DNA from: an uncultured Muribaculaceae bacterium
GTDB lineage: Bacteria; Bacteroidota; Bacteroidia; Bacteroidales; Muribaculaceae
Assembly: GCA_947178505.1 (NCBI GenBank)
Contig: CAMWYR010000001.1
Coordinates: forward strand, 1-64,000
Reading direction: 5' to 3'
DNA length: 64,000 nucleotides
Of the stretch, positions 2,785 to 16,521 are shown one piece after another. Numbering within the stretch: the first letter of the stretch is position 1; each line of letters opens with the position of its first letter. A program made the position numbers and the translations under genes. The notes under the pieces were generated by a model. It saw only the letters and a program-made list of their open reading frames with translations. It was not told the origin of the DNA and made no database searches.

Positions 2785-2829
2785 GAGTATCAGGTACATT
2801 ATACACACAGCTTATTGGCAACCAATATT

Positions 2830-3423
2830 ATGAAAAAAATAAGTAGGGTAATAGTAATGCTATTATGTATGATTGCGTGGTGGCCGTCGGAGGCCTCGGC
2901 GGAGAGTCAGGTTGTGCAGATGATGGAGGGTGAGCTTCGTCTTGGCTTAGGCTTACCTCTTGAGTCTTATACCGGATATGGCAATGTGCGTGGACATGGA
3001 GAATTAGGATTATGTTGGGGTATTGAGGGACGCTATAATTTCAAGGGAACTCCCTGGGACTGCGGTCTCACCTTTGAAATGTCGCCGGCAATCCGGAGAT
3101 TCAACAACCCTCTGAACGATGGTTATGACCGACACCTGGCAAACCGCATTATCGCCTTGGCTGCGGTCGGGGATTACAATTTCATACAGGGCAAGAAAAT
3201 CAATCCGTTTGTCGGCGTGGAATTAGGAGTTGCGCACAATGACGTGCAAAGCGACAGTTTTCCGACATGGGGAGGTTCTACCTCCATGCTTTTCGCTCCC
3301 CGCGCAGGCGTGGAATTTGTGCATCATATCCGACTTATGGCCAAGTTCAATATATGCCGCAAGGGATACAACACCTTTGCACTCAGCATAGGCTTTGTGG
3401 TCGGCGGCCGCCCCAAGAAATAA
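2830..3423 (+). CDS. outer-membrane beta-barrel-like protein (paralog 2)
   Basis: ORF 2815..3423, likely start ATG 2830 (MKKISRVIVMLLCMIAWWPSEASA); same layout and C-terminal motif FAPR.GVE.VHHIRLMA as paralog 1. Confidence 0.75.
   Translation: MKKISRVIVMLLCMIAWWPSEASAESQVVQMMEGELRLGLGLPLESYTGYGNVRGHGELGLCWGIEGRYNFKGTPWDCGLTFEMSPAIRRFNNPLNDGYDRHLANRIIALAAVGDYNFIQGKKINPFVGVELGVAHNDVQSDSFPTWGGSTSMLFAPRAGVEFVHHIRLMAKFNICRKGYNTFALSIGFVVGGRPKK
2875..2934 (+). repeat. 60-bp perfect direct repeat, copy 2
   Basis: Identical to 2239-2298; covers the end of the signal peptide and the mature N-terminus of paralog 2. Confidence 0.95.
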
Positions 3424-3438
3424 GGAAACTTCTGTTAT

Positions 3439-3495
3439 GCTCCATCCACTAAAAATCCGCCGCCCTGGTATTAAGAAATTTTAGTGGATGAAGCC
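3439..3495. repeat. dispersed palindromic repeat, copy A
   Basis: gctccatccactaaaaatccgccgccctggtattaagaaattttagtggatgaagcc; inverted ends gctccatccactaaaa/ttttagtggatgaagc; second copy at 32429-32516. Confidence 0.85.
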
Positions 3496-3522
3496 TAAGT
3501 TGTCTGACATTGATAACTATTT

Positions 3523-4080
3523 TTACAAAATATTTTCTGCGTTATGAAATAAACCGCAGATGAGTGTGAGATACTCAGGGAGATAACCGTCATCACTCCA
3601 TAGCAATGGGAAACCAAATAGTTCAGTGGCTGTCTTCCCGAGGTCGAAACCGTATGATTCAAGTGAGGGTCTCACCAATTCTGGATGCCGGCACGGTTGA
3701 TTGTCAAGCCTTGAACAACTGCCTTCGGGACAATAAAGGCAACTTCCGGCGTAAGCAAAAGCCTTTCCTCCGTATTTCATTTCCATATCCCGTAGTATCT
3801 TTTCGATGCGCAGACGTTCCGGGCGAAAGAATCGGTTTACTTGCGAGAAAGGGATTCCCTTTTCATCGGGCATAATCTTGGTAGCCACTAAAAACAAATT
3901 GGTGTACTGACGCAGTTCCGCCATCGTATCATGCGAAAACGGAGGACAGACCCATACCTTGCCATAATTCCGACATTCTTTGCAATACTTTATAAAACAT
4001 TCGGAATTACTGAATCTACGTATATATTCCGCTGTGGATATGGTTGCTGTAAAATCCTGTACCTGATATGTAAATTTCAT
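3523..4080 (-). CDS. DUF2284-type predicted metal-binding protein
   Basis: Cys-rich: ECFIKYCKECRNYGKVWVCPPF...YAGSCLYCPEGSCSRLDNQPCRHPELVRPSLESYGFDL; ATGA overlap with upstream ABC ATPase if start is 4080 (ORF extends to 4095). Confidence 0.8.
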   Translation of the reverse strand: MKFTYQVQDFTATISTAEYIRRFSNSECFIKYCKECRNYGKVWVCPPFSHDTMAELRQYTNLFLVATKIMPDEKGIPFSQVNRFFRPERLRIEKILRDMEMKYGGKAFAYAGSCLYCPEGSCSRLDNQPCRHPELVRPSLESYGFDLGKTATELFGFPLLWSDDGYLPEYLTLICGLFHNAENIL

Positions 4081-4829
4081 TTCCTGTTCTGCCATAGCAA
4101 TTCTTCAAAGCTCACCTCCGGGGATGAGAATAATCTTTGTATATGCCCGCTATTCACCATTTCTGTTACTGAAAGATGATGAAGCGCACCATTATCCACG
4201 AGAGCGATACTGTCACACATACGTAGTGCCACATCCAGCTCATGAGTGGAGAACAGAATACATTTGCCGCTGACGTGTGCAAGGGTGCGGAGAAGCGAGA
4301 CGAGTTCATAACGGTTGGGCATATCAAGGAAGGAGGTGGGTTCGTCAAGCAGCATTACAGGCGTGTCCTGCGCCAAAGCCCGTGCGATCATAATACGCTG
4401 GCATTCTCCGTCGCTCATGGTGTCCATTGTACGCTCGGCATAATTTTCCATCCCTACCGAGCTAATGGCGTCCATCACAATGTTTCTGTCTATATCCTGC
4501 ATCCTGCCTATCCAGTTGGTGTAAGGAGCACGACCAATGGCTACAACGTCCACGCATCGCATATTGGGAATCCGTGTGCGTTCTGTCGTGACAAATGCAA
4601 GAGACTTGGCAAGTCCTCCGGGAGAAAGTGAGCGTAAATCCTTGCCGTCAAGTATTATATCCCCCGAATATTGTCTGTTCAATCCGGCAATGGCTCTCAA
4701 AAGGGTCGATTTGCCTGAACCGTTGCGCCCGATAAGAGCAGTCAGTTGTCCATTGTCGAAAGATGTGTTTACCTTATCGAATAGAATACGGGAGCCGTAA
4801 CATATTGAGAGATTCTTGAGTCGTATCAT
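4077..4829 (-). CDS. btuD: ABC transporter ATP-binding protein, FecE/BtuD type
   Basis: Walker A GRNGSGKST, signature MSDGECQRIMIARAL, Walker B VMLLDEPTS; part of riboswitch operon. Confidence 0.85.
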   Translation of the reverse strand: MIRLKNLSICYGSRILFDKVNTSFDNGQLTALIGRNGSGKSTLLRAIAGLNRQYSGDIILDGKDLRSLSPGGLAKSLAFVTTERTRIPNMRCVDVVAIGRAPYTNWIGRMQDIDRNIVMDAISSVGMENYAERTMDTMSDGECQRIMIARALAQDTPVMLLDEPTSFLDMPNRYELVSLLRTLAHVSGKCILFSTHELDVALRMCDSIALVDNGALHHLSVTEMVNSGHIQRLFSSPEVSFEELLWQNRK

Positions 4830-5827
4830 CTGGTAACGGATTTATTGCGAAGCACCACCCACACTACCACAGGGATACCGAGCAATGCGGTGATGGCATT
4901 GACAGGCAGTGTGAATATCTTGGAAACGAGGTCGCAGAGCAGCAGGACGGAAGCTCCGGTAAGAACTGTTCCGGGAATGAGGATGCGATGGTCGCTGTTG
5001 TCAAAGAGCATTCTTGTGACGTGTGGCATGGCGAGACCGATAAAGCCGATTGGGCCGCAAAAGGCAGTCACCGTTCCTGCAAGCAATGTCGTTGACAGAA
5101 ACAGAAGTCCACGTGAGCGCCGGATATTCAGCCCCATAGTTACGGCATATTCCTCACCGAAAAGGAGCAGATTGAGCGGTTTGATAGTTACTACTGCCAA
5201 AGCCAATCCCATCATCACGGCCGGGAGGAGGATATAAAGTTGGGATAGCGTAATATCTCCTAGCGACCCCATTGTCCAGATGACAAAAGCCTTTAGCGAT
5301 TCCTCCTTGCTGAGATACTGCAGAATCTGTACTATCGCACCGACTCCCGACGAGAACATCATGCCGAGAATGAGGATCACCATAATATCCTTGATACGGT
5401 GTCCAACGGCAGCGATAACGATGAGAACAACCGCAGCCCCGATCCATGCGGCTCCGGCAATACCAAGTGAGGCAAAGGAAGCCGAAAGACCGAATAGAGG
5501 CGCACCGAGAATGAACAGAGCCACACCGAGACTTGCGCCCGAGCTTATGCCAAGGACGTATGGCCCTGCAAGCGGATTACGGAAAAGTGTCTGCATCTGA
5601 AGTCCACTCACTGATAATGCAGCTCCTGCCAGTAGGGCGACAATAGCTTTAATGAGACGAATGCTGAGAATGATTTTTGCAGTTGTCCGGGGACATTCTC
5701 CACCGGTAAGAGCCGCCCACACATCGCTCAACGGCACAGCGACAGCCCCCACTGACAGATCCAGCATGAACAGGAAGAGTGTGAGGGCTGCCAGAACAAT
5801 GAAAAGAATAGATGCTCTTGTTCGCAT
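4826..5827 (-). CDS. btuC: FecCD-family ABC permease (BtuC-like)
   Basis: 333 aa, multiple TM segments; GLQMQTLFRNPLAGPYVLGISSGASLGVA and PIGFIGLAMPHVTRMLF motifs of the FecCD family. Confidence 0.88.
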   Translation of the reverse strand: MRTRASILFIVLAALTLFLFMLDLSVGAVAVPLSDVWAALTGGECPRTTAKIILSIRLIKAIVALLAGAALSVSGLQMQTLFRNPLAGPYVLGISSGASLGVALFILGAPLFGLSASFASLGIAGAAWIGAAVVLIVIAAVGHRIKDIMVILILGMMFSSGVGAIVQILQYLSKEESLKAFVIWTMGSLGDITLSQLYILLPAVMMGLALAVVTIKPLNLLLFGEEYAVTMGLNIRRSRGLLFLSTTLLAGTVTAFCGPIGFIGLAMPHVTRMLFDNSDHRILIPGTVLTGASVLLLCDLVSKIFTLPVNAITALLGIPVVVWVVLRNKSVTR

Positions 5828-5838
5828 TTCCGTAATTT

Positions 5839-6996
5839 CTATTTCAGTTGCTTGTAATATACGAAATCTTCTTCAACGAGTTCCGGATGGAAGATTTTTA
5901 CAAGATCGCGCAGTAGAATATCGGGATTTACAACAGCTGATTCGTAATAGTCGTTACCGCCTGCGGCATTTGTCTTCAGATTGTTGTTCCATACATAGCC
6001 GTTACGGAAGCATCGTGTGTCGGAAAACTTCGGGCATGATTTCCTGAGTTCATCGAAAGAGTTAGCCATACCGACATTAAGCCACATGTCCGCCTCGGAA
6101 GTCAGCTTATACGCTTCTTCAAGGTCGATAGGCAGCGAAGCATTGCCGGTGTTCTTCTTATAAATATAGTCGCCTCCGGCATCCTTGATAAGCCGGGCCA
6201 CATAGCTTTCGGTGGAAGGCATAAACCAGGAGTCTCCATAGGGCGTGTTGAGCATTACGGAGGGAGCATCGAGCACGGTATCGGCGACTCTCTTTTTAAG
6301 TTCATTGTACCTGACTGGGATGCCGCCAAAAACCTGTTCGCCTTCTGTACGTTTTCCGACGACCTCGGAAAGAGCTACCATCCATTCGGCTTTGCCAAGC
6401 GGTGATTCTTCAAGATAGTCACCGACATACATAAACGGTATTCCCAGTTCGTTGAGTTTCCCTTCCATCGAGCTTGCACCGTTCACTCCGTATAGGAGGA
6501 CAAGATCCGGGTCGAGAGAAATGAGCAGTTCGTAATTGATGTTCCCTTCATAGCCTACGTCACCGATACTGTCACGGTTAGCGGCGATGACCGGATTGGA
6601 AATATAGTCGATGCCGGAAACACCTGCCACACGCCCGGCTTCCCCAACAGCATCGAGCATAGCTATATGAGTGGAAGACATAGCCACAATACGCGAAGCA
6701 TCGCCCTCGAGTACCTGACCAATGAATCCTTCGGGAGCAGACTCACCGCCTCTTGCTATGAAGAGTTGAGTGGTTATGCTGTCCGCACCCTGCCACGGAT
6801 TAGTGACAGTAATGATGGAGCTTTCATATCCGTCAGCCCCCTTAATACTGAATCCGGAGGCATATTCAGGGGTATAGAGCTGATGGCTGAAATCGCTGAT
6901 AGAAGCGGTCTTTTTACCATTACAGGCAGCCATCAAAACGATGAACAGGCACAGACTGATGAAAGATTTTATTCTATTAACTTTCATATTTATCAT
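5839..6996 (-). CDS. btuF: ABC transporter periplasmic binding lipoprotein (BtuF-like)
   Basis: Lipobox LFIVLMAACNG; substrate-binding fold motifs (DPDLVLLYG, WLNVGMANSFDELRKSCPKF); adjacent to permease and ATPase. Confidence 0.85.
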   Translation of the reverse strand: MINMKVNRIKSFISLCLFIVLMAACNGKKTASISDFSHQLYTPEYASGFSIKGADGYESSIITVTNPWQGADSITTQLFIARGGESAPEGFIGQVLEGDASRIVAMSSTHIAMLDAVGEAGRVAGVSGIDYISNPVIAANRDSIGDVGYEGNINYELLISLDPDLVLLYGVNGASSMEGKLNELGIPFMYVGDYLEESPLGKAEWMVALSEVVGKRTEGEQVFGGIPVRYNELKKRVADTVLDAPSVMLNTPYGDSWFMPSTESYVARLIKDAGGDYIYKKNTGNASLPIDLEEAYKLTSEADMWLNVGMANSFDELRKSCPKFSDTRCFRNGYVWNNNLKTNAAGGNDYYESAVVNPDILLRDLVKIFHPELVEEDFVYYKQLK

Positions 6997-8393
6997 GGGA
7001 TAATAATTTTATGAGTTTTATTTTCATTCCTCCAGAAGTAAATTCCTGAATTCAAATGATCCCATTTTCCAAATTCCACTTTTTCCGTAATTATAATTCC
7101 TTGAAGATTATAAAGAATACCAGAATCAGAGACATTTTGAGTTTGAATATCTTCAATACCAGAAATAGGCTGAGACTTGGGGAAAAGAGGGAGCGACGGA
7201 AACCAATAATTCATAATCATTTCATAATCGCGAATTTTTTCTCCTTGTGGAGAATAACGCCGAGTAATATATGTTGGAGTCCCGAATTCGTGGTAGAGTG
7301 CCATGTAAATTTCATCAGATATAGGATGAACGCCTATAGCACAACCATATAGTTTCCAATTAGCACCTTCTTCTTCCAAATCAATAAACAAGGTTTGTTT
7401 TCTTGTATCGCAGTCGAACTTATATATCTTTGTTCCGGTAAACCACCTATTGGGTCCACCTTTCCAGTAAAGGCAATTCTGAACCGTCGAGGCCACAAAC
7501 GCGTCCGGTGTCCACGCATACCAAGAGTTAGATGGCGGATACATTCCTTCAGGAATATCTATTATTTCATAGGTCAGTGTTTCGGGGTCTAACCGAACAA
7601 TATAATTCAGAAAAGCCCCTGTTCCTTGAAGATTCTTAGCGATAGAAAGCCAAAGGGAGCCGTCCTTAGATTTAACGATAGACCCTATCCCGGCTCCCTC
7701 TTGTACGATATCCATAGAAAGAGTCTGAGTAACTTTGTCAATTACAGGGTCAACAACAAGAAGTCCGAATTGCTGATGAGCGACGAAAATTTTACCGGCT
7801 GCAGCCACCATCATACCGGACTGACCGTGATATAACGAACCGGTTGGGTCGGTATTGGGCTTATCGTTATCTCCTCCCGCATTTGGATTAGCAGAACCTT
7901 CGACTTGCCCGGTGACTGTATAAGTATCGAGGTCAAAAATCCATACTCCATTACTTGTGGAAATGTAGCCTTTGTGTTCATCGACACCAACAAATCCTCT
8001 GCCATCGCATTGCGCTCCCGAAGGATCTATAAGACTTTGCTGATGCAAAATTTTCATAGTTTTTGCATCAGCAACAGTAATACGTCCACCAGTTATACTT
8101 GCTCCGGGGTCTTTATCCTGTTTGGCGATAAGATATAATTTGTCATTCCATATCGCTCCATACTGGTTTGTACAGCCAAGTTCCATACCGGGATTTTCCG
8201 CCTGTATTATTCGGTATTTCCAAAAATTGCCTTCAGGGTCATCCGGCAAAAGGTAATTGACGGTGGAGTTCTGGTGTCCGTACCAATCCTCATTAACCCA
8301 GATAATGCCTTGGGAATAATCCGCCTCCTGAGCGGCAATGGAAAAAGCCATTACCGTCAGGATAGCAGATATTGAAAATCTTTTCAGTTTCAT
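6993..8393 (-). CDS. DUF5074/YncE-like beta-propeller protein with T9SS-like C-terminal tail
   Basis: 466 aa; signal peptide; propeller region paralogous to the C-terminal half of the next gene (VNEDWYGHQN...NPGMELGCTNQYGAIWNDKLYLIAKQ); tail SGILYNLQGIIITEKV...LNSGIYFWRNENKTHKIIIP. Confidence 0.78.
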   Translation of the reverse strand: MKLKRFSISAILTVMAFSIAAQEADYSQGIIWVNEDWYGHQNSTVNYLLPDDPEGNFWKYRIIQAENPGMELGCTNQYGAIWNDKLYLIAKQDKDPGASITGGRITVADAKTMKILHQQSLIDPSGAQCDGRGFVGVDEHKGYISTSNGVWIFDLDTYTVTGQVEGSANPNAGGDNDKPNTDPTGSLYHGQSGMMVAAAGKIFVAHQQFGLLVVDPVIDKVTQTLSMDIVQEGAGIGSIVKSKDGSLWLSIAKNLQGTGAFLNYIVRLDPETLTYEIIDIPEGMYPPSNSWYAWTPDAFVASTVQNCLYWKGGPNRWFTGTKIYKFDCDTRKQTLFIDLEEEGANWKLYGCAIGVHPISDEIYMALYHEFGTPTYITRRYSPQGEKIRDYEMIMNYWFPSLPLFPKSQPISGIEDIQTQNVSDSGILYNLQGIIITEKVEFGKWDHLNSGIYFWRNENKTHKIIIP

Positions 8394-11300
8394 TACTTAA
8401 TAATAACTTTAGAACTGAAATTGGAATCAGATTTCAGAATGTAGATACCTTGATGGCCTCCAAAATCAAAGACGTATCGTTCGGCATCGACTCTGAAAGA
8501 ATTAACCATACGTCCGGCAACATCATAAACAGTAAACGATTTACCATTAAAACCGTTTATATAAATTCGCTGACCATCGCAAGTTATTGATTTTGATTCA
8601 GACGTTACATCGTTGATGCCGGTAGAAACATCGCTTACTTTTACTTCCACTGTCTTGCTTATCATTCTTCCATTGGATTCTGCAGCAAGGGTAAAGAAGT
8701 GACTACCTATTGAATGAGGAATTACTTTCAGTTGTTTTCCTGTTAAAGAAACCTCTGCGGATGGCTCATCATTATTGTCATCCAACATTATAGGGGTGTC
8801 GAGAAGTGAAATCTTGATATTATTGTCAATGTTATCACGGTCTGAGATAATTTCAGACAAATCAAGGACCTTTTCTCCGTCGGTAGTATTGACTGCAATT
8901 TCCTCCAGGTCAATTACGACATCATACTTATCCGGGAAGATAGCAAACGACTGGAACCAGTAATATGGTCTGAGGGCTATTGTTCGAACAATCTCAGCGG
9001 TTTCAGGATTTACAAAATGAGTCCAGTTATAACGATAGTGACCGGATGCGGAATCTTCAGTTGTCATAACAATAAGTTCCCCTGAACGGTCGTCATAACG
9101 TAATGTGCCGTAAGTTTTTTGTTTAACGCGAGAGTTAGAACCGGTAAGATTAGCAGCTTCCATATCAAATACCAGTTTAATTTCGCTTGCCGGTGTGCCA
9201 ACCTCCCATTGGTAATACTTATCCTTAGCTGAGCCACCGGCAATACCACCTCCGGCAGAGAACCAGATGCAGTTTGTAGTGTGGCTTCCAACAAATGGCG
9301 TATTTCGCCAAGCACCCCATGAACAGGTTGGATACGCCATTCCATCAGGTAATGTAATACTTAAATCGTCGTTAATTTCAAGGGTTTCAGGATTAATGCA
9401 AGTAAATACACCCCGACCACTTTCAGTTGACGCAATCCATATATTTCCATCGGCAGTCTGAGTTATACCTTGAACTGTTGTAAAAGGATAATTCTTTACA
9501 ACTTGATCGGTTTCCGTATTAATGGCAAATGCGCCGGTAGCTTGCTTGATGCCGAATACATATTTACCGGCATGAACCATATCTCCAATCTGACCGGAAT
9601 ACAAATCAGCTCCGGCAGAACCGGATTCATCAAAAGCAGTAATTTTCCCAATGACCTTAATCTCGTCAATATTTACAATATAGATACCATTAGAAGTGCC
9701 AACATAAACTTTATCGGGTGTTGCACCAACAACGGCACGTCCATCAGCACTCTTTGTTTCATCTCCAAACATAAGGTCATCTATTGAACCTTGCCGTTTA
9801 AGTGTTTTAGCGTCAGCGATAACAACTCTACCACCTCCGGGCAGCGGGTCTCCGGCATCGACAGCCTGTTTTGAAACCGCAATAAGTTTATCAGCCCATA
9901 TTGTAGCATATTGAGAAGTACAGCCAAATGACATACCGGGATTTTCACGTTCATAAACCTGATACATCATTTCACCTTCGGGGGTAATGTAGTTCATACC
10001 ACCGTTTGTGTGTCCAAACCATTCTTCATTAAGAACAAATGTACCATCGATATATCCATTTTCAAGCGGGGTCCTGTCTTGTTCTTCAACTTTTACGGTA
10101 TAGGTTTTAGTGATATTGCTGCCGTCTGTTGATGTAAGTTTGAGAGTACATTCACCAGCACGGTGTCCGCTAAGTTCATAGAACTGAATGCGAGTATTGT
10201 ATTCGTCCCAGTAATTCACTTTGTACATCGAAGCAATCATCTCATCTTTTGATGAACCTGCACCTTCCAGTGTTACATTGAAATCGGGTATATCCGCATC
10301 CGCAGGAATCGGGTCGGCAATTACCCCAATCATCTGTTTGGGGTTGAGAAAAATCACATCGCCTTCAACACCTTTAATTGCAAAATCAGTTACCGGATGA
10401 CGAAGTGTTGAAACAATATCAAACGAGGCATTTACTTCCGGATTCCAAGTGGAAGACACTGTAATCGTAGCACTACCGGGAGTTTTGGTTGTCTTTATTG
10501 CAGTTGCGTTTGCTGTTGCAATCTTACTGTCGCTTGTTGAGTAAGTAAGTGCCGTGTATGTTGCATTATCAGGATAGATTGTTATGAGATTCTCAATCGT
10601 GGTATTGAGAGGTGCATCAATAGATGATTCAGAGAATTCAATTCGTTCAATAGGAATTTCAGGTGGCAGCAATGTGAAGTGACATACATTACTATAAGAA
10701 TATGAAGCACCCTTTCCGGTACGTACCCTAACATGGATATAAAGTTCCCCGGCTTTATTGCCTTTATATGTCAGCTGACCGAAGTTTGAGGCACCTGTAC
10801 CTATGCTTGAAACGATGTCATTAGAAGTGGATGAAGTTTCCTGTAAATTATCCGTGCGTCTATACCACGAATAATTGATAGCATCATAAACTTCATCCCT
10901 TTGGACAAATACCGGAATATAATTTTTATTGTCAGAAAGTGAATATGTGAGTTTATCGGGAATAACAGCACAAGTCTCATGAACTGCAGGGAGATATAGC
11001 AGATAGTCGGGGATTTGATTGTCGGCACATGATAACATTAGGCAGTCTTCAAATTCGGTCAGATGCCAATCGCCACTGGTACACGTGTCGTCACCCGAAT
11101 TGTTAAAAATACCGTCTCCGTCTGCGTCTATGCTGAGCGTATTCCCTTCAAGGGAGAAAGCTCTGTCGCTCTCGAGAATACTTAGTACCTCTGATGCGGT
11201 GGGTATCTCTGAGTTGAAGCATAGACTCAGCACAACATTGTCAATCTTATCGGGGTTGCCAAAGCGCACGATGAGCGGAAGTCTTGCATTGCCTGTGCCG

Positions 11301-12163
11301 ACAGTGCGCGTGCACTTGGAAGCATCGATTTTTTGTGTTAATAGACGACCGGGCATATAGATAATATCTCCATCTTCGCACGGTGCGACACCTTCACCCA
11401 TGCCTCCTACCATCGCACTCTCAAATTGTGTAAAGCTCCATCCATCAACAGCACCATCAACGAGTGTGCGACCGGTAAATCCGCTTCCGGAATACATCCA
11501 GTCTTGTGAAGGGGAATTGGCGCACCAATAACTCCAATATCCTTCATACCAAGCCGAGAGCCATTTCGGTTCGTAGGGTGTTATTCCACCGCGATTTTCG
11601 GTGTCGGTATCGATATCCCAGCAGTCGTAGTCGTATGCAGGATAGCCATATTTCCCATAATCAAAGGGATGCTGAATGTAATGAGAACCTGCTATTGCTT
11701 GTTCTATGGCTTGTTGTGCCAATGCGGGAGCGTTATCACCCGGTGCCTCTGTCTGACCCATGAAAGAGTTGACATTGTAGTAGTCAAAGTTGATGAACTC
11801 AAAGTCCTTAGCCTTTTCAAAATTGAAAAAGACGTGGTTGAGTACATCTTGATTCAGACTGTAGCCGACACCACAAAGAGTGCTTCCCATACTTCCTGTG
11901 TATTGAGTCAGCATTGACAGACGAGATGAATTGGCACATATTGCCTTCATCATAGTTTCACCGGTTGGAGTTTCTCCGTTCTCCCAGCGATAGCCCCATA
12001 CGTAAGAGTCAGAGCCGTAGGTGTCGCCGTTGTACTGGATAACAAGAGCGGCACGATTGGGACCTGTTCCGGTCCAGTTCCGGATTTTGTCGAAGTCTAT
12101 CGGGTGAGCCATCGCTGTCATGACCGATAAACCGATTGCTAATGAGAGTAGTTTCGTTCTCAT
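8393..12163 (-). CDS. large multidomain surface protein: unique N-terminal domain, Ig-like modules, DUF5074/YncE-like propeller, T9SS-like tail
   Basis: 1256 aa; signal peptide MRTKLLSLAIGLSVMTAMA; Ig-like IERIEFSESSIDAPLNTTIENLITIYPDNATYTALTYSTSDSKIATAN; propeller LNEEWFGHTNGGMNYITPEGE; tail FTVYDVAGRMVNSFRV...GIYILKSDSNFSSKVIIK. Confidence 0.8.
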   Translation of the reverse strand: MRTKLLSLAIGLSVMTAMAHPIDFDKIRNWTGTGPNRAALVIQYNGDTYGSDSYVWGYRWENGETPTGETMMKAICANSSRLSMLTQYTGSMGSTLCGVGYSLNQDVLNHVFFNFEKAKDFEFINFDYYNVNSFMGQTEAPGDNAPALAQQAIEQAIAGSHYIQHPFDYGKYGYPAYDYDCWDIDTDTENRGGITPYEPKWLSAWYEGYWSYWCANSPSQDWMYSGSGFTGRTLVDGAVDGWSFTQFESAMVGGMGEGVAPCEDGDIIYMPGRLLTQKIDASKCTRTVGTGNARLPLIVRFGNPDKIDNVVLSLCFNSEIPTASEVLSILESDRAFSLEGNTLSIDADGDGIFNNSGDDTCTSGDWHLTEFEDCLMLSCADNQIPDYLLYLPAVHETCAVIPDKLTYSLSDNKNYIPVFVQRDEVYDAINYSWYRRTDNLQETSSTSNDIVSSIGTGASNFGQLTYKGNKAGELYIHVRVRTGKGASYSYSNVCHFTLLPPEIPIERIEFSESSIDAPLNTTIENLITIYPDNATYTALTYSTSDSKIATANATAIKTTKTPGSATITVSSTWNPEVNASFDIVSTLRHPVTDFAIKGVEGDVIFLNPKQMIGVIADPIPADADIPDFNVTLEGAGSSKDEMIASMYKVNYWDEYNTRIQFYELSGHRAGECTLKLTSTDGSNITKTYTVKVEEQDRTPLENGYIDGTFVLNEEWFGHTNGGMNYITPEGEMMYQVYERENPGMSFGCTSQYATIWADKLIAVSKQAVDAGDPLPGGGRVVIADAKTLKRQGSIDDLMFGDETKSADGRAVVGATPDKVYVGTSNGIYIVNIDEIKVIGKITAFDESGSAGADLYSGQIGDMVHAGKYVFGIKQATGAFAINTETDQVVKNYPFTTVQGITQTADGNIWIASTESGRGVFTCINPETLEINDDLSITLPDGMAYPTCSWGAWRNTPFVGSHTTNCIWFSAGGGIAGGSAKDKYYQWEVGTPASEIKLVFDMEAANLTGSNSRVKQKTYGTLRYDDRSGELIVMTTEDSASGHYRYNWTHFVNPETAEIVRTIALRPYYWFQSFAIFPDKYDVVIDLEEIAVNTTDGEKVLDLSEIISDRDNIDNNIKISLLDTPIMLDDNNDEPSAEVSLTGKQLKVIPHSIGSHFFTLAAESNGRMISKTVEVKVSDVSTGINDVTSESKSITCDGQRIYINGFNGKSFTVYDVAGRMVNSFRVDAERYVFDFGGHQGIYILKSDSNFSSKVIIK

Positions 12164-12194
12164 GATTGATTTATTTATTAATTAAAGAAATATG

Positions 12195-13388
12195 TCAAGG
12201 ATTAGGGATGGATGGGAGTGATATATGTAGATCTTGTGCGCGACTTAGTTCAGTTGATGTTTCTCCGAGCCAACCGCAGTATTGGTTTACTCCGGTATAG
12301 ACACGAATAAAATCAACTCCCGGAAGATTGACACGGTTTCCTTTGGCATCAACAGCCCAAGAAATATCAAAGGAATTAAGTTCTGAATATTCATTTGGGT
12401 GGTTATCCACATATCCCCAAGGGTAACTATATAAGACATAATAGGCGCCATATCCACTTATATCTTCACCATTGTTTGCAAGAAGTGATCCATAAAATCT
12501 GAGTTCCGATGCGTCAACCCATTTAGGGAAATAGTCTTGATTGTGGAATACGTTCTTTGCCATATATCCCTCAATTCCATTATTATCAACCCAGCGGATA
12601 TAATAGACATCGTCGAGACTGTTATCTTCGTCCTCAACAATTTGTCTGTTTGGATCGGGGCGGTAGTAAGTTAATGAATAATCGTGTTTTGTCATAGGAG
12701 AGTAATATTCACTACCTGCAATTTCATACCACTCATCGTCCGGAATGCCATTACAGTTAGTGTCATAACTAACCATAACTATACCCGGCTCAGATGAGCC
12801 ACCTTTTTTTTCAGGTTGAAGTAGTTCATAAAAACAGTTGCCCCATATTCTGAAATCTTTTTCTCCGGGGATATTTATGACAGTATGGTCAAACCCAAAT
12901 GTCACATACCCACCAAATCCACCTAATGAAATCATAATATCATTAGTACCTGAAATTGATTCTTCTGCTTTTTGAAGGATTGACTCATAGGTGTCGCCCT
13001 CCTCATATCGAGGCATTTCATTAATAAATTGACCCGGAGCCGGACAATATTCATATACTTTGCATATATATGGGCTATATTCTATTTCTTCGTGAATGAC
13101 ATGGATAGCGAAAGAAAAATCATATGGAGTTTCCGAATCCAGAATCTTTAACTCCAAATTATATGTCCCTTCTTCTGACGCAAGAAATATATAATCCTTT
13201 GAATTACTCACCAATGCCCCGTTTATATACCATTCGTAACTTTGGCCGGTCAATGCGGGACGCAAATCGAGCTTCTGCATACGCGGTATATAATAAACAT
13301 CATCTATTCCAAGATTAACCATCGGAATATCGCTGCTACAAGCAGAAAGTATAAAGCAAGTTATGAAAGCTATTAATAAATTCTTCAT
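12195..13388 (-). CDS. surface lipoprotein with PKD-like domain
   Basis: ORF 12195..13439; start at 13388 (MKNLLIAFITCFILSACSS) overlaps the upstream stop as ATGA; PKD-like YEWYINGALVSNSKDYIFLASEEGTYNLELKI; DTNCNGIPDDEWYEI metal-site-like loop. Confidence 0.75.
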   Translation of the reverse strand: MKNLLIAFITCFILSACSSDIPMVNLGIDDVYYIPRMQKLDLRPALTGQSYEWYINGALVSNSKDYIFLASEEGTYNLELKILDSETPYDFSFAIHVIHEEIEYSPYICKVYEYCPAPGQFINEMPRYEEGDTYESILQKAEESISGTNDIMISLGGFGGYVTFGFDHTVINIPGEKDFRIWGNCFYELLQPEKKGGSSEPGIVMVSYDTNCNGIPDDEWYEIAGSEYYSPMTKHDYSLTYYRPDPNRQIVEDEDNSLDDVYYIRWVDNNGIEGYMAKNVFHNQDYFPKWVDASELRFYGSLLANNGEDISGYGAYYVLYSYPWGYVDNHPNEYSELNSFDISWAVDAKGNRVNLPGVDFIRVYTGVNQYCGWLGETSTELSRAQDLHISLPSIPNP

Positions 13389-14536
13389 TTTGATAAAAAT
13401 GTTATATGCGCCGGAATATCCCCGGTCCTGACACTCCATTTTTTATATCCTTCAGGAGAAAAGCAATACAGCGTTCCGGATGAAACATAATTTTTGGCAT
13501 CCGTTACGAATATGTCTCCGGTTTCGGGATGAACAGCAATGCCGTAAGGTATGGATATTTCTTTTTCAGTACCATCTTTAATGAAGCTGTCAGATACAAT
13601 CTGCTTTGTTCTTATGTCAATGACTCCATATGTGATAGTATTTGAGGCACTATAATTGTTCCACTCGGTGGCATAATAATACATATAGTCTCCATATATA
13701 GCCATATTGGAGCAAGCCACAGGAATAGTGTCCGTCACTACCATTTGATTAAATCCGGGTTTCTTTTGCATCACATACAAACGTGAGGGTCTTGTTTGGT
13801 AATCACCTCTCGAAGTAATCCATAATTTATTATAGCGGTCTTTTTTAAGACGATGGAGGTTTATGCCGACAGGTATCTGCTGAACTTGCTTGAAGTCGAC
13901 CATTTGGATTACAGATACTGTATTGTCGTAGTTAGGCGCACGATAGCCACCTGAATTTGCTACATACATATAGTCATCAACAACCTCCATTTCTTCGGGC
14001 TGATATCCGACAGATACTTTTCTTGTAATTCCTAAAGAGAGTGTATCAACCTCATAGACTGCTCCTTTGGGAGCATTCGGGTCAATCAAAACCGGACCGA
14101 CGTAAGAACTTACGTATGCCTTACCTCGATGAAATCTGATATATCTGCAATTAGGTATGTCAATTTGTCCAAGTCTAACTCCGGAGTGAGCATCAAGAAC
14201 TTCAACTTTATGAGAGCAATTGACAACGATATACAGTTTGCTCCCATATATTCCAATATCGTTGCCGACATCTCCAAGTTCTTTAATAACATTAGGGTTG
14301 CGTTCAGCATAAAAATTGCGGGAGTATAATCCGGTATGATAGTCATAAAAATCTAATGTACATTTATTAGACCCCATGTTTCCTTCATTTACCAAATAAA
14401 AGCCGCGTATTGAGGTTTCTTTATTTTCATCGCCAATAATTTCATACTCCGAGGGCACCACAAGTTCGTCCTCACGACAACTTGTGGCGACCATCAGGAG
14501 TGGCAGAAAATATAAGAAAATTTGTTTTGTTGTCAT
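13385..14536 (-). CDS. btuG: YncE/DUF5074-like beta-propeller lipoprotein, BtuG-like
   Basis: Lipobox LLMVATSCRED; repeats such as VEVLDAHSGVRLGQIDIPNCRYIRFHRGKAYVSSYVGPVLIDP; lies directly after the TonB receptor behind a B12 riboswitch, as in known Bacteroides btuB-btuG loci. Confidence 0.72.
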   Translation of the reverse strand: MTTKQIFLYFLPLLMVATSCREDELVVPSEYEIIGDENKETSIRGFYLVNEGNMGSNKCTLDFYDYHTGLYSRNFYAERNPNVIKELGDVGNDIGIYGSKLYIVVNCSHKVEVLDAHSGVRLGQIDIPNCRYIRFHRGKAYVSSYVGPVLIDPNAPKGAVYEVDTLSLGITRKVSVGYQPEEMEVVDDYMYVANSGGYRAPNYDNTVSVIQMVDFKQVQQIPVGINLHRLKKDRYNKLWITSRGDYQTRPSRLYVMQKKPGFNQMVVTDTIPVACSNMAIYGDYMYYYATEWNNYSASNTITYGVIDIRTKQIVSDSFIKDGTEKEISIPYGIAVHPETGDIFVTDAKNYVSSGTLYCFSPEGYKKWSVRTGDIPAHITFLSK

Positions 14537-16521
14537 ATTTCTACAGTAAGAGTAAATCTGTAATTACGTTTTGGCATCGGGTAGTTGAGAATTACATCAT
14601 AATCTTGACTAAGAAGATTGTTAATTTCAATCAGTCCACGAAGGCTAACACATCCCAACTTAAAATCCTTACTCAAGGAAACATCCGAAGTGTACCATGG
14701 TTGGGTATAGTTATACCTGATATTCTCTTGTTGATTGTATCGTTCTCCAACATATATCCAAGAGTAATTAAGACCCCAACCTTTCCACTGAGCATTTACA
14801 ACTGCTGCTCCGGAATGGCGAGGTATATACGGAATCTGATCTCCGTAATAATTATCGGACGGATTAGTTATATCTATTGCCCGTTGAAAAGTATATTGTG
14901 CGCGGACTGTAAGATATAAATCACGATATGGATTTAGTGTCAAAAGTCCGGTAACATCAATCCCTCGAATATCAACAAGACCAAGATTAAGCATGGTCCA
15001 TCTGAATTGCTGACCTTTTGGATATGCCACAATCTTATCTTTCACTCTATTGTAATATATATCAGCACTAATTCGAACGGCTGATATAAGGGAAGTAGAG
15101 TTATGATCATATAAAAAACCAAGATTATATTGTGTAACTCTTTCAGGTGAAAGTTGAGAATTGCCCATATCTGCGTAATACAAATCATTAAATGTAGGCA
15201 TTCTGAACGATTGCTTATAAAATATCCTAATAGAAAAGTCTTTGTTTCGTAGAGGGTAGCCATTCATGAATATGGCAGGAGAGAATACATGTTTATCAGC
15301 CGGTGCCTTTTGTCCTCTAATTTTATCATGAATGAATGTGCCAAGAGCACTTGCTTGAATTTTAATACGATTAAAGTTCAACGCAGTAGCCGCTGATAAA
15401 TATTGTGATATTCTGTCAGGTTTCACAAATCCATATACATCCGCATCAAGAGTGTTCCACATAAAATCATAGCTTGCTGATGCACTCCAAAAATTTGTTA
15501 TTTCATACTCATTTGCAGAGGAAAAATAAATCTCCTTTTGCTTATAGAGATTGTCTATTTTTATCTGCTTGTCATCGTTGTTTACGTAGTGAGTGCGATA
15601 AAAAGCGTATTTGATATTATTTAAGGTTGTGAATTTTCCGAAATATCCGGTATAGCGACCTTGTGCAAATGAGTTGGTATCCCATATACGTTCCCCCCTT
15701 CGCCATACATTATTAACAATTGCTCCGGGGACCCCTCGCTCTGAATTATAATTATAAACTTTGAAATTCCAAGAACCTGAGTTTAGGTTGCCATGAGTAT
15801 TCCACTCAATTCGAGTGGCATTTATATCTCCGTTCTGTCTAACCGCTGTAGTATCATAGGCAAGTTCTCCGGCGGGATTAACTCTACGATAACGGAATTT
15901 ATACTTACCACTTGAATTAATCCACTCTGTACTTAAAGACGTAGAAATTCTCTCACTAAGTTTCAGCTCAATCATAACAGAAGGGTTTAATAAATCAAAG
16001 GAGCCGGTACGAACTGTGGCTCTTGCATGGTAATTTTCCCTATCATAGAACACCGGAGTCCGAGTCCTCATATATATGGTGCCGGCGGATCCAAAATCTT
16101 TAGCAGGTTGCAATATTTCGCTTTTTTGACCATTGTAGAGTGATAAAGCTTCAATATTATCAAGAGAAAACTGACCTAAATCTATTTGACCGTTCTGTGC
16201 ATTACCGAGTTCCACTCCATCATAAACAACACCCGTATGGTTTGTACCCATAGACCGAATATTGACAGTTTTGATTCCGCCAACGCCACCATAATCTTTT
16301 ACTTGAACACCAGAAAAATAACGCAAAGCATCCGCGACACTGTTGCTGTTTAATCGATGTAGTTCTTCACCCGACAGTGTTTGTGCCGGTATAATATCTT
16401 CATTAGGTTTTCGCGCAATTACCTCTACTTCCTTTAATTGATGAGAAAGGGAGTCGAGCGGAGTGTCTGCAAATACATCAATACTGATGCAAAGTAACAC
16501 TAATGAATAGATATATTTCAT
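14533..16521 (-). CDS. btuB: TonB-dependent outer-membrane receptor, BtuB-like
   Basis: 662 aa; plug domain VADALRYFSGVQVKDYGGVGGIKTVNIRSMGTNHTGVVYDGVELGNAQNGQIDLGQFSLDNIEAL; C-terminal beta-barrel; directly downstream of cobalamin riboswitch. Confidence 0.88.
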   Translation of the reverse strand: MKYIYSLVLLCISIDVFADTPLDSLSHQLKEVEVIARKPNEDIIPAQTLSGEELHRLNSNSVADALRYFSGVQVKDYGGVGGIKTVNIRSMGTNHTGVVYDGVELGNAQNGQIDLGQFSLDNIEALSLYNGQKSEILQPAKDFGSAGTIYMRTRTPVFYDRENYHARATVRTGSFDLLNPSVMIELKLSERISTSLSTEWINSSGKYKFRYRRVNPAGELAYDTTAVRQNGDINATRIEWNTHGNLNSGSWNFKVYNYNSERGVPGAIVNNVWRRGERIWDTNSFAQGRYTGYFGKFTTLNNIKYAFYRTHYVNNDDKQIKIDNLYKQKEIYFSSANEYEITNFWSASASYDFMWNTLDADVYGFVKPDRISQYLSAATALNFNRIKIQASALGTFIHDKIRGQKAPADKHVFSPAIFMNGYPLRNKDFSIRIFYKQSFRMPTFNDLYYADMGNSQLSPERVTQYNLGFLYDHNSTSLISAVRISADIYYNRVKDKIVAYPKGQQFRWTMLNLGLVDIRGIDVTGLLTLNPYRDLYLTVRAQYTFQRAIDITNPSDNYYGDQIPYIPRHSGAAVVNAQWKGWGLNYSWIYVGERYNQQENIRYNYTQPWYTSDVSLSKDFKLGCVSLRGLIEINNLLSQDYDVILNYPMPKRNYRFTLTVEI

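Follow-up and report, generated by a model that had tools for sequence, protein, structure and literature searches.

The window analysed here, a stretch of 64,000 nucleotides, carries a nine-gene run on the minus strand, from 16521 to 3523, in which the genes overlap or nearly touch and a gene for a DUF2284 protein comes last. The leader contains a cobalamin riboswitch aptamer (RF00174, 16683..16874, minus strand; cmscan 81.6 bits, E=1.5e-18), the only cobalamin riboswitch found in a search of the whole genome. The first two genes, like all those that follow, lie on the minus strand and encode a BtuB1-like TonB-dependent corrinoid receptor with Pfam Plug and TonB barrel domains (14533..16521; best PDB match 8blw_A, 'Vitamin B12 transporter BtuB1', E=6.9e-128) and a BtuG1-like surface beta-propeller lipoprotein with a DUF5074 domain (13385..14536; 8blw_B, YncE/BtuG1, E=1e-39). 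These closest PDB matches belong to one structure, 8blw, that of BtuB1 and its partner BtuG1 from B. thetaiotaomicron. There follow a putative surface lipoprotein with a PKD-like domain (12195..13439; PF16820 borderline, with co-occurrence in B12 operons of relatives), a large secreted protein with a DUF5074 propeller and a T9SS sorting tail (8393..12163; PF16819 E=1e-88, TIGR04183), a DUF5074 propeller protein (6993..8393; PF16819 E=2.5e-117), a BtuF-like periplasmic binding protein (5839..6996; PF01497 E=1e-22), a BtuC-like permease (4826..5827; PF01032 E=1e-74) and a BtuD-like ATPase (4077..4829; PF00005 E=3.6e-30). BtuF, BtuC and BtuD are assigned from Pfam matches and do not reach the NCBIfam equivalog cut-offs, the best such matches being BtuC PRK03784 for the permease and the corrinoid ABC ATPase PRK09536 for the ATPase. 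A riboswitch leader, BtuB with an adjacent BtuG, and BtuFCD on the same strand are the features of a Bacteroidota cobamide uptake operon, and all are present; the riboswitch and the homology of BtuB and BtuG to solved structures verify the proposal, made in the sequence-only reading, that the DUF2284 gene is the terminal gene of a B12 uptake operon. The GC content of the operon (3523-16521) is 42.7% (40.6% in the surface genes) against 52.9% in the rest of the window. Comparison with relatives shows exchange of the surface module and about 90% identity in btuFCD–DUF2284.

Read from its first ATG, the DUF2284 gene occupies 3523..4095 on the minus strand and encodes 190 aa. An alternative start at the second ATG (M6) gives 3523-4080 (minus strand), and these are the coordinates that had been reported earlier, with the strand omitted; the open reading frame is real. 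At this second start the ATG forms an ATGA overlap with the stop codon of btuD (...AGGAAATGAAA), which ends at 4077, just as the earlier claim of a start codon overlapping the btuD-like stop had it. Both start codons are also found in close relatives. The dN/dS ratio of the gene in Muribaculaceae pairs is 0.09-0.11, comparable to those of btuC, btuD and btuF, and orthologues that are 90-92% identical occur in other genera. The gene is under purifying selection, and the low ratio (about 0.1) together with these orthologues puts the reading frame far beyond chance. Just downstream lies a strong hairpin (3430..3525, minus strand; inverted repeat CATCCACTAAAA/TTTTAGTGGATG; MFE -26.2 kcal/mol, z=-4.4), which is probably the transcript end between convergent genes; a simple scan for terminators gave none. 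The sequences that converge on the operon end, at 2128-2784 and 2815-3423 on the plus strand, are a tandem duplicate of a gene for a small outer-membrane beta-barrel protein.

The match of the protein to PF10050 (DUF2284) scores 76.8 bits, well above the Pfam curated cut-off of 25 bits (E=2.1e-21), and bears out the family named in the sequence-only reading. It represents a divergent Bacteroidota branch of the family, scoring 77 bits compared with 141-158 for four other order-level members. The protein has nine cysteines (33, 38, 41, 50, 119, 122, 127, 135 and 180), so the earlier count of at least ten was slightly high; both cysteine motifs quoted with it are present letter for letter. In an alignment of 62 homologues seven of these cysteines are invariant, spaced in the window protein as C-x2-C-x8-C-P-P (38, 41, 50) and C-x2-C-x4-C-x7-C (119, 122, 127, 135), and Cys33 and Cys180 are not. 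Also fixed are Arg129, Arg142, Ser144, Leu145, Glu146, Gly149, Trp166 and Pro173. A similar cysteine pattern is apparent by eye in high-scoring members of the family (L034-L036). PF10050 is described as a 'predicted metal-binding protein', and the window protein has the same seven cysteines and CPP motif; two papers that name DUF2284 give no function for it. The seven invariant cysteines suggest a metal centre, most likely Fe-S in an anaerobic host, with a structural zinc site as a further possibility. On inspection of the N-terminus (MAEQEMKFTYQ...) no signal sequence was seen, and we therefore infer a cytoplasmic location.

Searches of the PDB by sequence, with the single protein and with a 62-row profile, gave no match, Pfam families beyond DUF2284 gave weak chance matches only, and no known reductase showed a significant sequence or fold match. 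AlphaFold2 models were made for the window protein (pLDDT 89, pTM 0.85) and its B. xylanisolvens counterpart (pLDDT 92, pTM 0.88). For neither did Foldseek return a significant PDB match among the top 50 listed, and a Foldseek search against viral models gave nothing. Structures of CblD/MMADHC, whose fold is a modified nitroreductase fold, do recur in the two lists at TM-scores of 0.31-0.41 (6x8z in one; 5a4r, 6x8z and 5cv0 in the other); with E-values of 1.4-4.7 and an rmsd above 10 Å, we take this likeness as a lead only. The models place strands at residues 10-20, 66-76, 111-114 and 176-184 and a long helix at 87-108; CblD/MMADHC is described as having a four-stranded antiparallel sheet and one long helix (PMC4705923). 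The PDB profile search and Pfam revealed no sequence homology between the CblD/MMADHC family and DUF2284.

A scan of GTDB species genomes yielded 80 DUF2284 loci (L numbers stand for individual loci throughout), for each of which identity to the window protein was measured. A locus was counted as B12-linked if it had a B12-uptake gene within 5.5 kb or a cobalamin riboswitch in the fetched flank. Among the 48 loci with at least 46% identity, a B12-uptake gene lies within 5.5 kb in 31 and a cobalamin riboswitch nearby in nine more, giving 40/48, whereas none of the 32 loci below 46% has either. The 46% split was set after the data had been seen, and the tree gives broadly the same grouping. Three of the eight unlinked loci above the split have short or missing flanks (L062 lacks the upstream flank; those of L065 and L092 are about 3 kb). 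For a random gene, proximity to a B12 locus would be expected in roughly 1-2% of cases, judging from one to three such loci per genome of 2-4 Mb. The B12 link of the nearest DUF2284 branches is thus strong.

The family at large behaves differently. Within the window's own family PF10050 occurs in 17/99 genomes; two of these genes, at about 90% identity, lie directly behind btuFCD, two more close ones are on contig edges, and those at 32-48% identity lie elsewhere. In a sample of the order, PF10050 was found in 11/295 genomes and a btuC relative in 217/295; the ten other DUF2284 genes are not near btuC among the matches listed, and none occurs in 20 sampled btuC regions. High-scoring DUF2284 genes have other neighbours. 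A tie of the whole family to B12 was accordingly rejected, on the order survey (0/10 others near a listed btuC) and on the 32 unlinked loci. Also rejected, after the GTDB scan and the tree, was an impression from the family sample that the linkage reflects one recent transfer. A plasmid search with a high-scoring member gave no match. The count of DUF2284 neighbours of btuFCD proposed in the sequence-only reading therefore has two outcomes, clear linkage in the nearest branches and none in the family at large. The idea that the protein handles imported corrinoid is supported by linkage across several families and operon layouts, but only for these branches. Given the 17/99 family genomes that have the gene, the 217/295 order genomes with btuC and the 20 btuC regions that lack DUF2284, the protein is accessory and not essential to B12 use.

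The position of the gene within B12 loci varies. It follows btuD in the Muribaculaceae branch, in the Bacteroides/Phocaeicola/Butyricimonas branch and in three further loci (L074, L098, L115). In Alistipes it can follow btuFCD-thrE1-thrE2-DUF6064 (L071, L076). It is found behind btuF alone (L079, L094), behind btuG (L078), behind DUF5074 genes (L067, L070) and directly behind btuB (L096, L099, L100 and L058, the last lacking btuFCD); in L057 an intact DUF2284 gene stands behind btuF and btuD remnants. Because the gene is kept in layouts without btuCD or btuFCD, its tie is to the B12 operon and not to the ABC transporter, and this persistence, with no evident signal sequence, fits a cytoplasmic role beyond transport. 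In one Alistipes locus (L069) cobA (PF02572 E=2.9e-62) is divergent from the DUF2284 gene, with a cobalamin riboswitch between them facing cobA, and a second cobA lies near DUF2284 in another (L086). In the tree, B12 linkage is spread over several branches (Muribaculaceae; Alistipes; Bacteroides with Butyricimonas; other Rikenellaceae), with proteins from the families Muribaculaceae, Rikenellaceae, Bacteroidaceae and Odoribacteraceae. Unlinked are a clade beside ribD and a Prevotellaceae-rich clade; unlinked clades such as the ribD clade keep the same seven cysteines. Deep support in the tree is uneven and several deep branches are weak, so the tree does not settle how often linkage arose independently. 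The thrE1-thrE2-DUF6064 genes (threonine/serine exporter halves and DUF6064) lie upstream of DUF2284 in five loci (L068, L071, L076, L086, L107).

Some of these loci are mobile. An 11-kb operon block is shared at 99.2-99.97% identity by B. xylanisolvens, Phocaeicola coprocola, P. faecicola, B. bouchesdurhonensis and Butyricimonas (L087-L091), five species of three genera, and is 95% identical in B. faecalis; near-identity across the five species is, on the sequences, the mark of recent transfer. The block (L087-L091, L084) ends in short repeats. Judging from the translations, the Duncaniella muris operon borders on two integrase genes and on genes of the transfer type; genes of both kinds stand beside DUF2284 in L059. 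Mobile B12 loci are already known, such as BoCTn, cited in PMC11005914. Degraded copies of the gene occur in close relatives, with a frameshift in L063 and an in-frame stop in L026/L062.

What might such a protein do? Because a corrinoid is adenosylated in the Co(I) state, a cyano-, hydroxo- or alkyl-cobamide that has been taken up must first be stripped of its upper ligand and reduced. The window genome contains a PduO adenosyltransferase and an enzyme with a B12-binding domain, and should therefore need Co(I) corrinoid; a genome search found no CobA. Since its closest relatives are encoded among or next to the B12 uptake genes of many other gut Bacteroidota, the DUF2284 protein probably prepares imported B12 for use. 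The reading that we tentatively favour, as one that could well prove correct, is that it is a cytoplasmic metalloprotein of cobamide acquisition, probably of the Fe-S type, which strips the upper ligand from the imported corrinoid and/or reduces it before adenosylation. BtuCD would deliver the corrinoid to the cytoplasm, the metal centre held by the seven invariant cysteines would remove the upper ligand (e.g. cyanide) and/or reduce Co(III) to Co(II)/Co(I), and the product would be supplied to an adenosyltransferase, of the PduO type in the window genome and CobA in Alistipes. The cytoplasmic location, the kind of metal, the binding of corrinoid and the reaction are all what we infer, and the earlier wording, 'Fe-S-based reduction or upper-ligand removal', is the most economical version. 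Such a step fits a cytoplasmic, metal-binding, riboswitch-controlled protein placed at the BtuCD exit and paired elsewhere with cobA. The accessory distribution suggests that the protein makes the use of scarce or ligand-blocked cobamides broader or faster and is not essential. Since DUF2284 as a whole shows no B12 linkage and the seven cysteines persist in unlinked clades, the chemistry of the protein may be a general one.

The mobility of the loci raises the question of whether the gene is merely a passenger there, with no role of its own. Transfer of 11 kb at near-identity between species, the integrase and transfer-type genes that adjoin DUF2284 in L059 and the lower GC content of the operon would all suit a passenger. 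Two degraded copies aside, however, the gene evolves at a dN/dS of about 0.1, and it is retained where its neighbours are absent and in several distinct layouts and branches, so that a passenger is very improbable. It is also rather unlikely that the protein senses metals or redox state, or handles metals in a general way, and is co-regulated with B12 uptake without ever touching the corrinoid. Such a role would accommodate the unlinked clades, which share the cysteine set beside ribD and other genes, and the NCBIfam entries in which DUF2284 domains are fused to methyltransferase-type selenoproteins (NF041536, NF045648), but would leave it unexplained that the nearest branches alone are kept in B12 operons, in many layouts, and that the gene is paired with CobA.

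Two further alternatives let the protein act on the corrinoid in another way. It may be an escort and not a redox enzyme, with a metal site that is structural. In that case it would bind the corrinoid as it leaves BtuCD, possibly through a Cys-Co bond, and pass it on to B12 enzymes or the adenosyltransferase, a role that CblD (MMADHC) plays in human cells. MMADHC/CblD entries are the only ones in the Foldseek lists (top 50 listed for each of the two models) with both TM-scores above 0.3, and the gene follows btuCD yet is kept without it; MMADHC is also reported to form a Co-S bond through a Cys loop (PMC13376404). At TM-scores below 0.5, and with the E-values and rmsd given above, there is no significant fold match. 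The seven invariant cysteines, moreover, suggest a metal centre, and to our knowledge CblD has no multi-Cys metal site; we regard a pure escort as unlikely. Alternatively, the protein could be the metal-containing partner subunit of a Dph6-like PP-loop ATPase in corrinoid modification, for example side-chain re-amidation or remodelling. In 8/80 loci (L066, L068, L069, L078, L082, L086, L095, L102) the DUF2284 stop is adjoined or overlapped by a Dph6-like gene (PF01902 E=3e-35). Such a gene is found there in L018 and L042 too, but it is absent from the window operon and from most linked loci, which makes this partnership distinctly doubtful. The Dph6-like gene at the 3' end of DUF2284 belongs to Alistipes and relatives and is possibly a corrinoid side-chain amidase.

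Removal of the upper ligand and reduction, the step that we favour, would have counterparts elsewhere. RamA/RACE corrinoid activators and cob(II)alamin reductases supply corrinoid cobalt with electrons of low potential, as the DUF2284 protein would; they are of different families, with no Pfam overlap, and resemble DUF2284 in proposed function only. Human CblC/CblD (MMACHC/MMADHC), which process and escort B12, would be alike in the proposed step (upper-ligand removal and hand-over) and, in the models, in the weak recurring resemblance to CblD. A bolder version, which we consider improbable as a whole, would make the B12-linked branch of DUF2284 the cytoplasmic factor for B12 processing that is missing in gut Bacteroidota. 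It would correspond to CblC/CblD but contain a metal, perhaps on a CblD-like fold, would take off the upper ligand and hand the corrinoid over to the adenosyltransferase, and would be a competitive trait carried from host to host by mobile B12 loci. Gut Bacteroidota compete strongly for B12, and in the literature we found no explanation of how they process cobamides after import (decyanation, reduction and hand-over to the adenosyltransferase). The comparative argument ties DUF2284 proteins to this step and is testable in culturable species such as Duncaniella muris DSM 103720 and Bacteroides xylanisolvens XB1A, where a growth phenotype that depends on the cobamide upper ligand is predicted.

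The window operon is of the same type, in its riboswitch control and mobility, as the Bacteroidota B12 loci with BtuB/BtuG/BtuH/BtuJ or on BoCTn described in portions of PMC10404256, PMC12751083 and PMC11005914, and the DUF2284 gene is not described in those portions. In operon 2 of B. thetaiotaomicron, BtuX (BT_1949) lies directly after btuD, has no signal peptide and showed a 5.8-fold change in cells in cobamide-limitation proteomics (PMC12751083). Compared by position and description only, BtuX holds the same slot as the DUF2284 gene, and both proteins lack a signal peptide. The GTDB scan listed matches to the DUF2284 branch in other Bacteroides but not in B. thetaiotaomicron, so BtuX may be a different protein. 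If BtuX is a DUF2284 protein, the slot already has a name.

Several minor observations concern the surroundings of the family. In the ribD-adjacent clade (L108-L111, L121, L122, L125, L126, L128, L134), the DUF2284 gene immediately precedes ribD (riboflavin biosynthesis) and B12 genes are absent from the vicinity. In a further locus (L161:7061-15312), a high-scoring DUF2284 gene has a small Cys-rich gene behind it and, a few genes upstream, others that resemble larB/larC/larE (nickel pincer cofactor), judging from the translations only. A contig binned as Lachnoclostridium (L064) carries a BtuB/BtuG operon and is probably mis-binned Bacteroidota DNA. Seven loci on the minus strand (L072, L075, L077, L080, L081, L083, L085) have a small gene behind a cobalamin riboswitch; it encodes about 125 aa (MNILLYGV.AEIAERIAERY...) and matches no Pfam family, and similar genes occur in L068 and L082.
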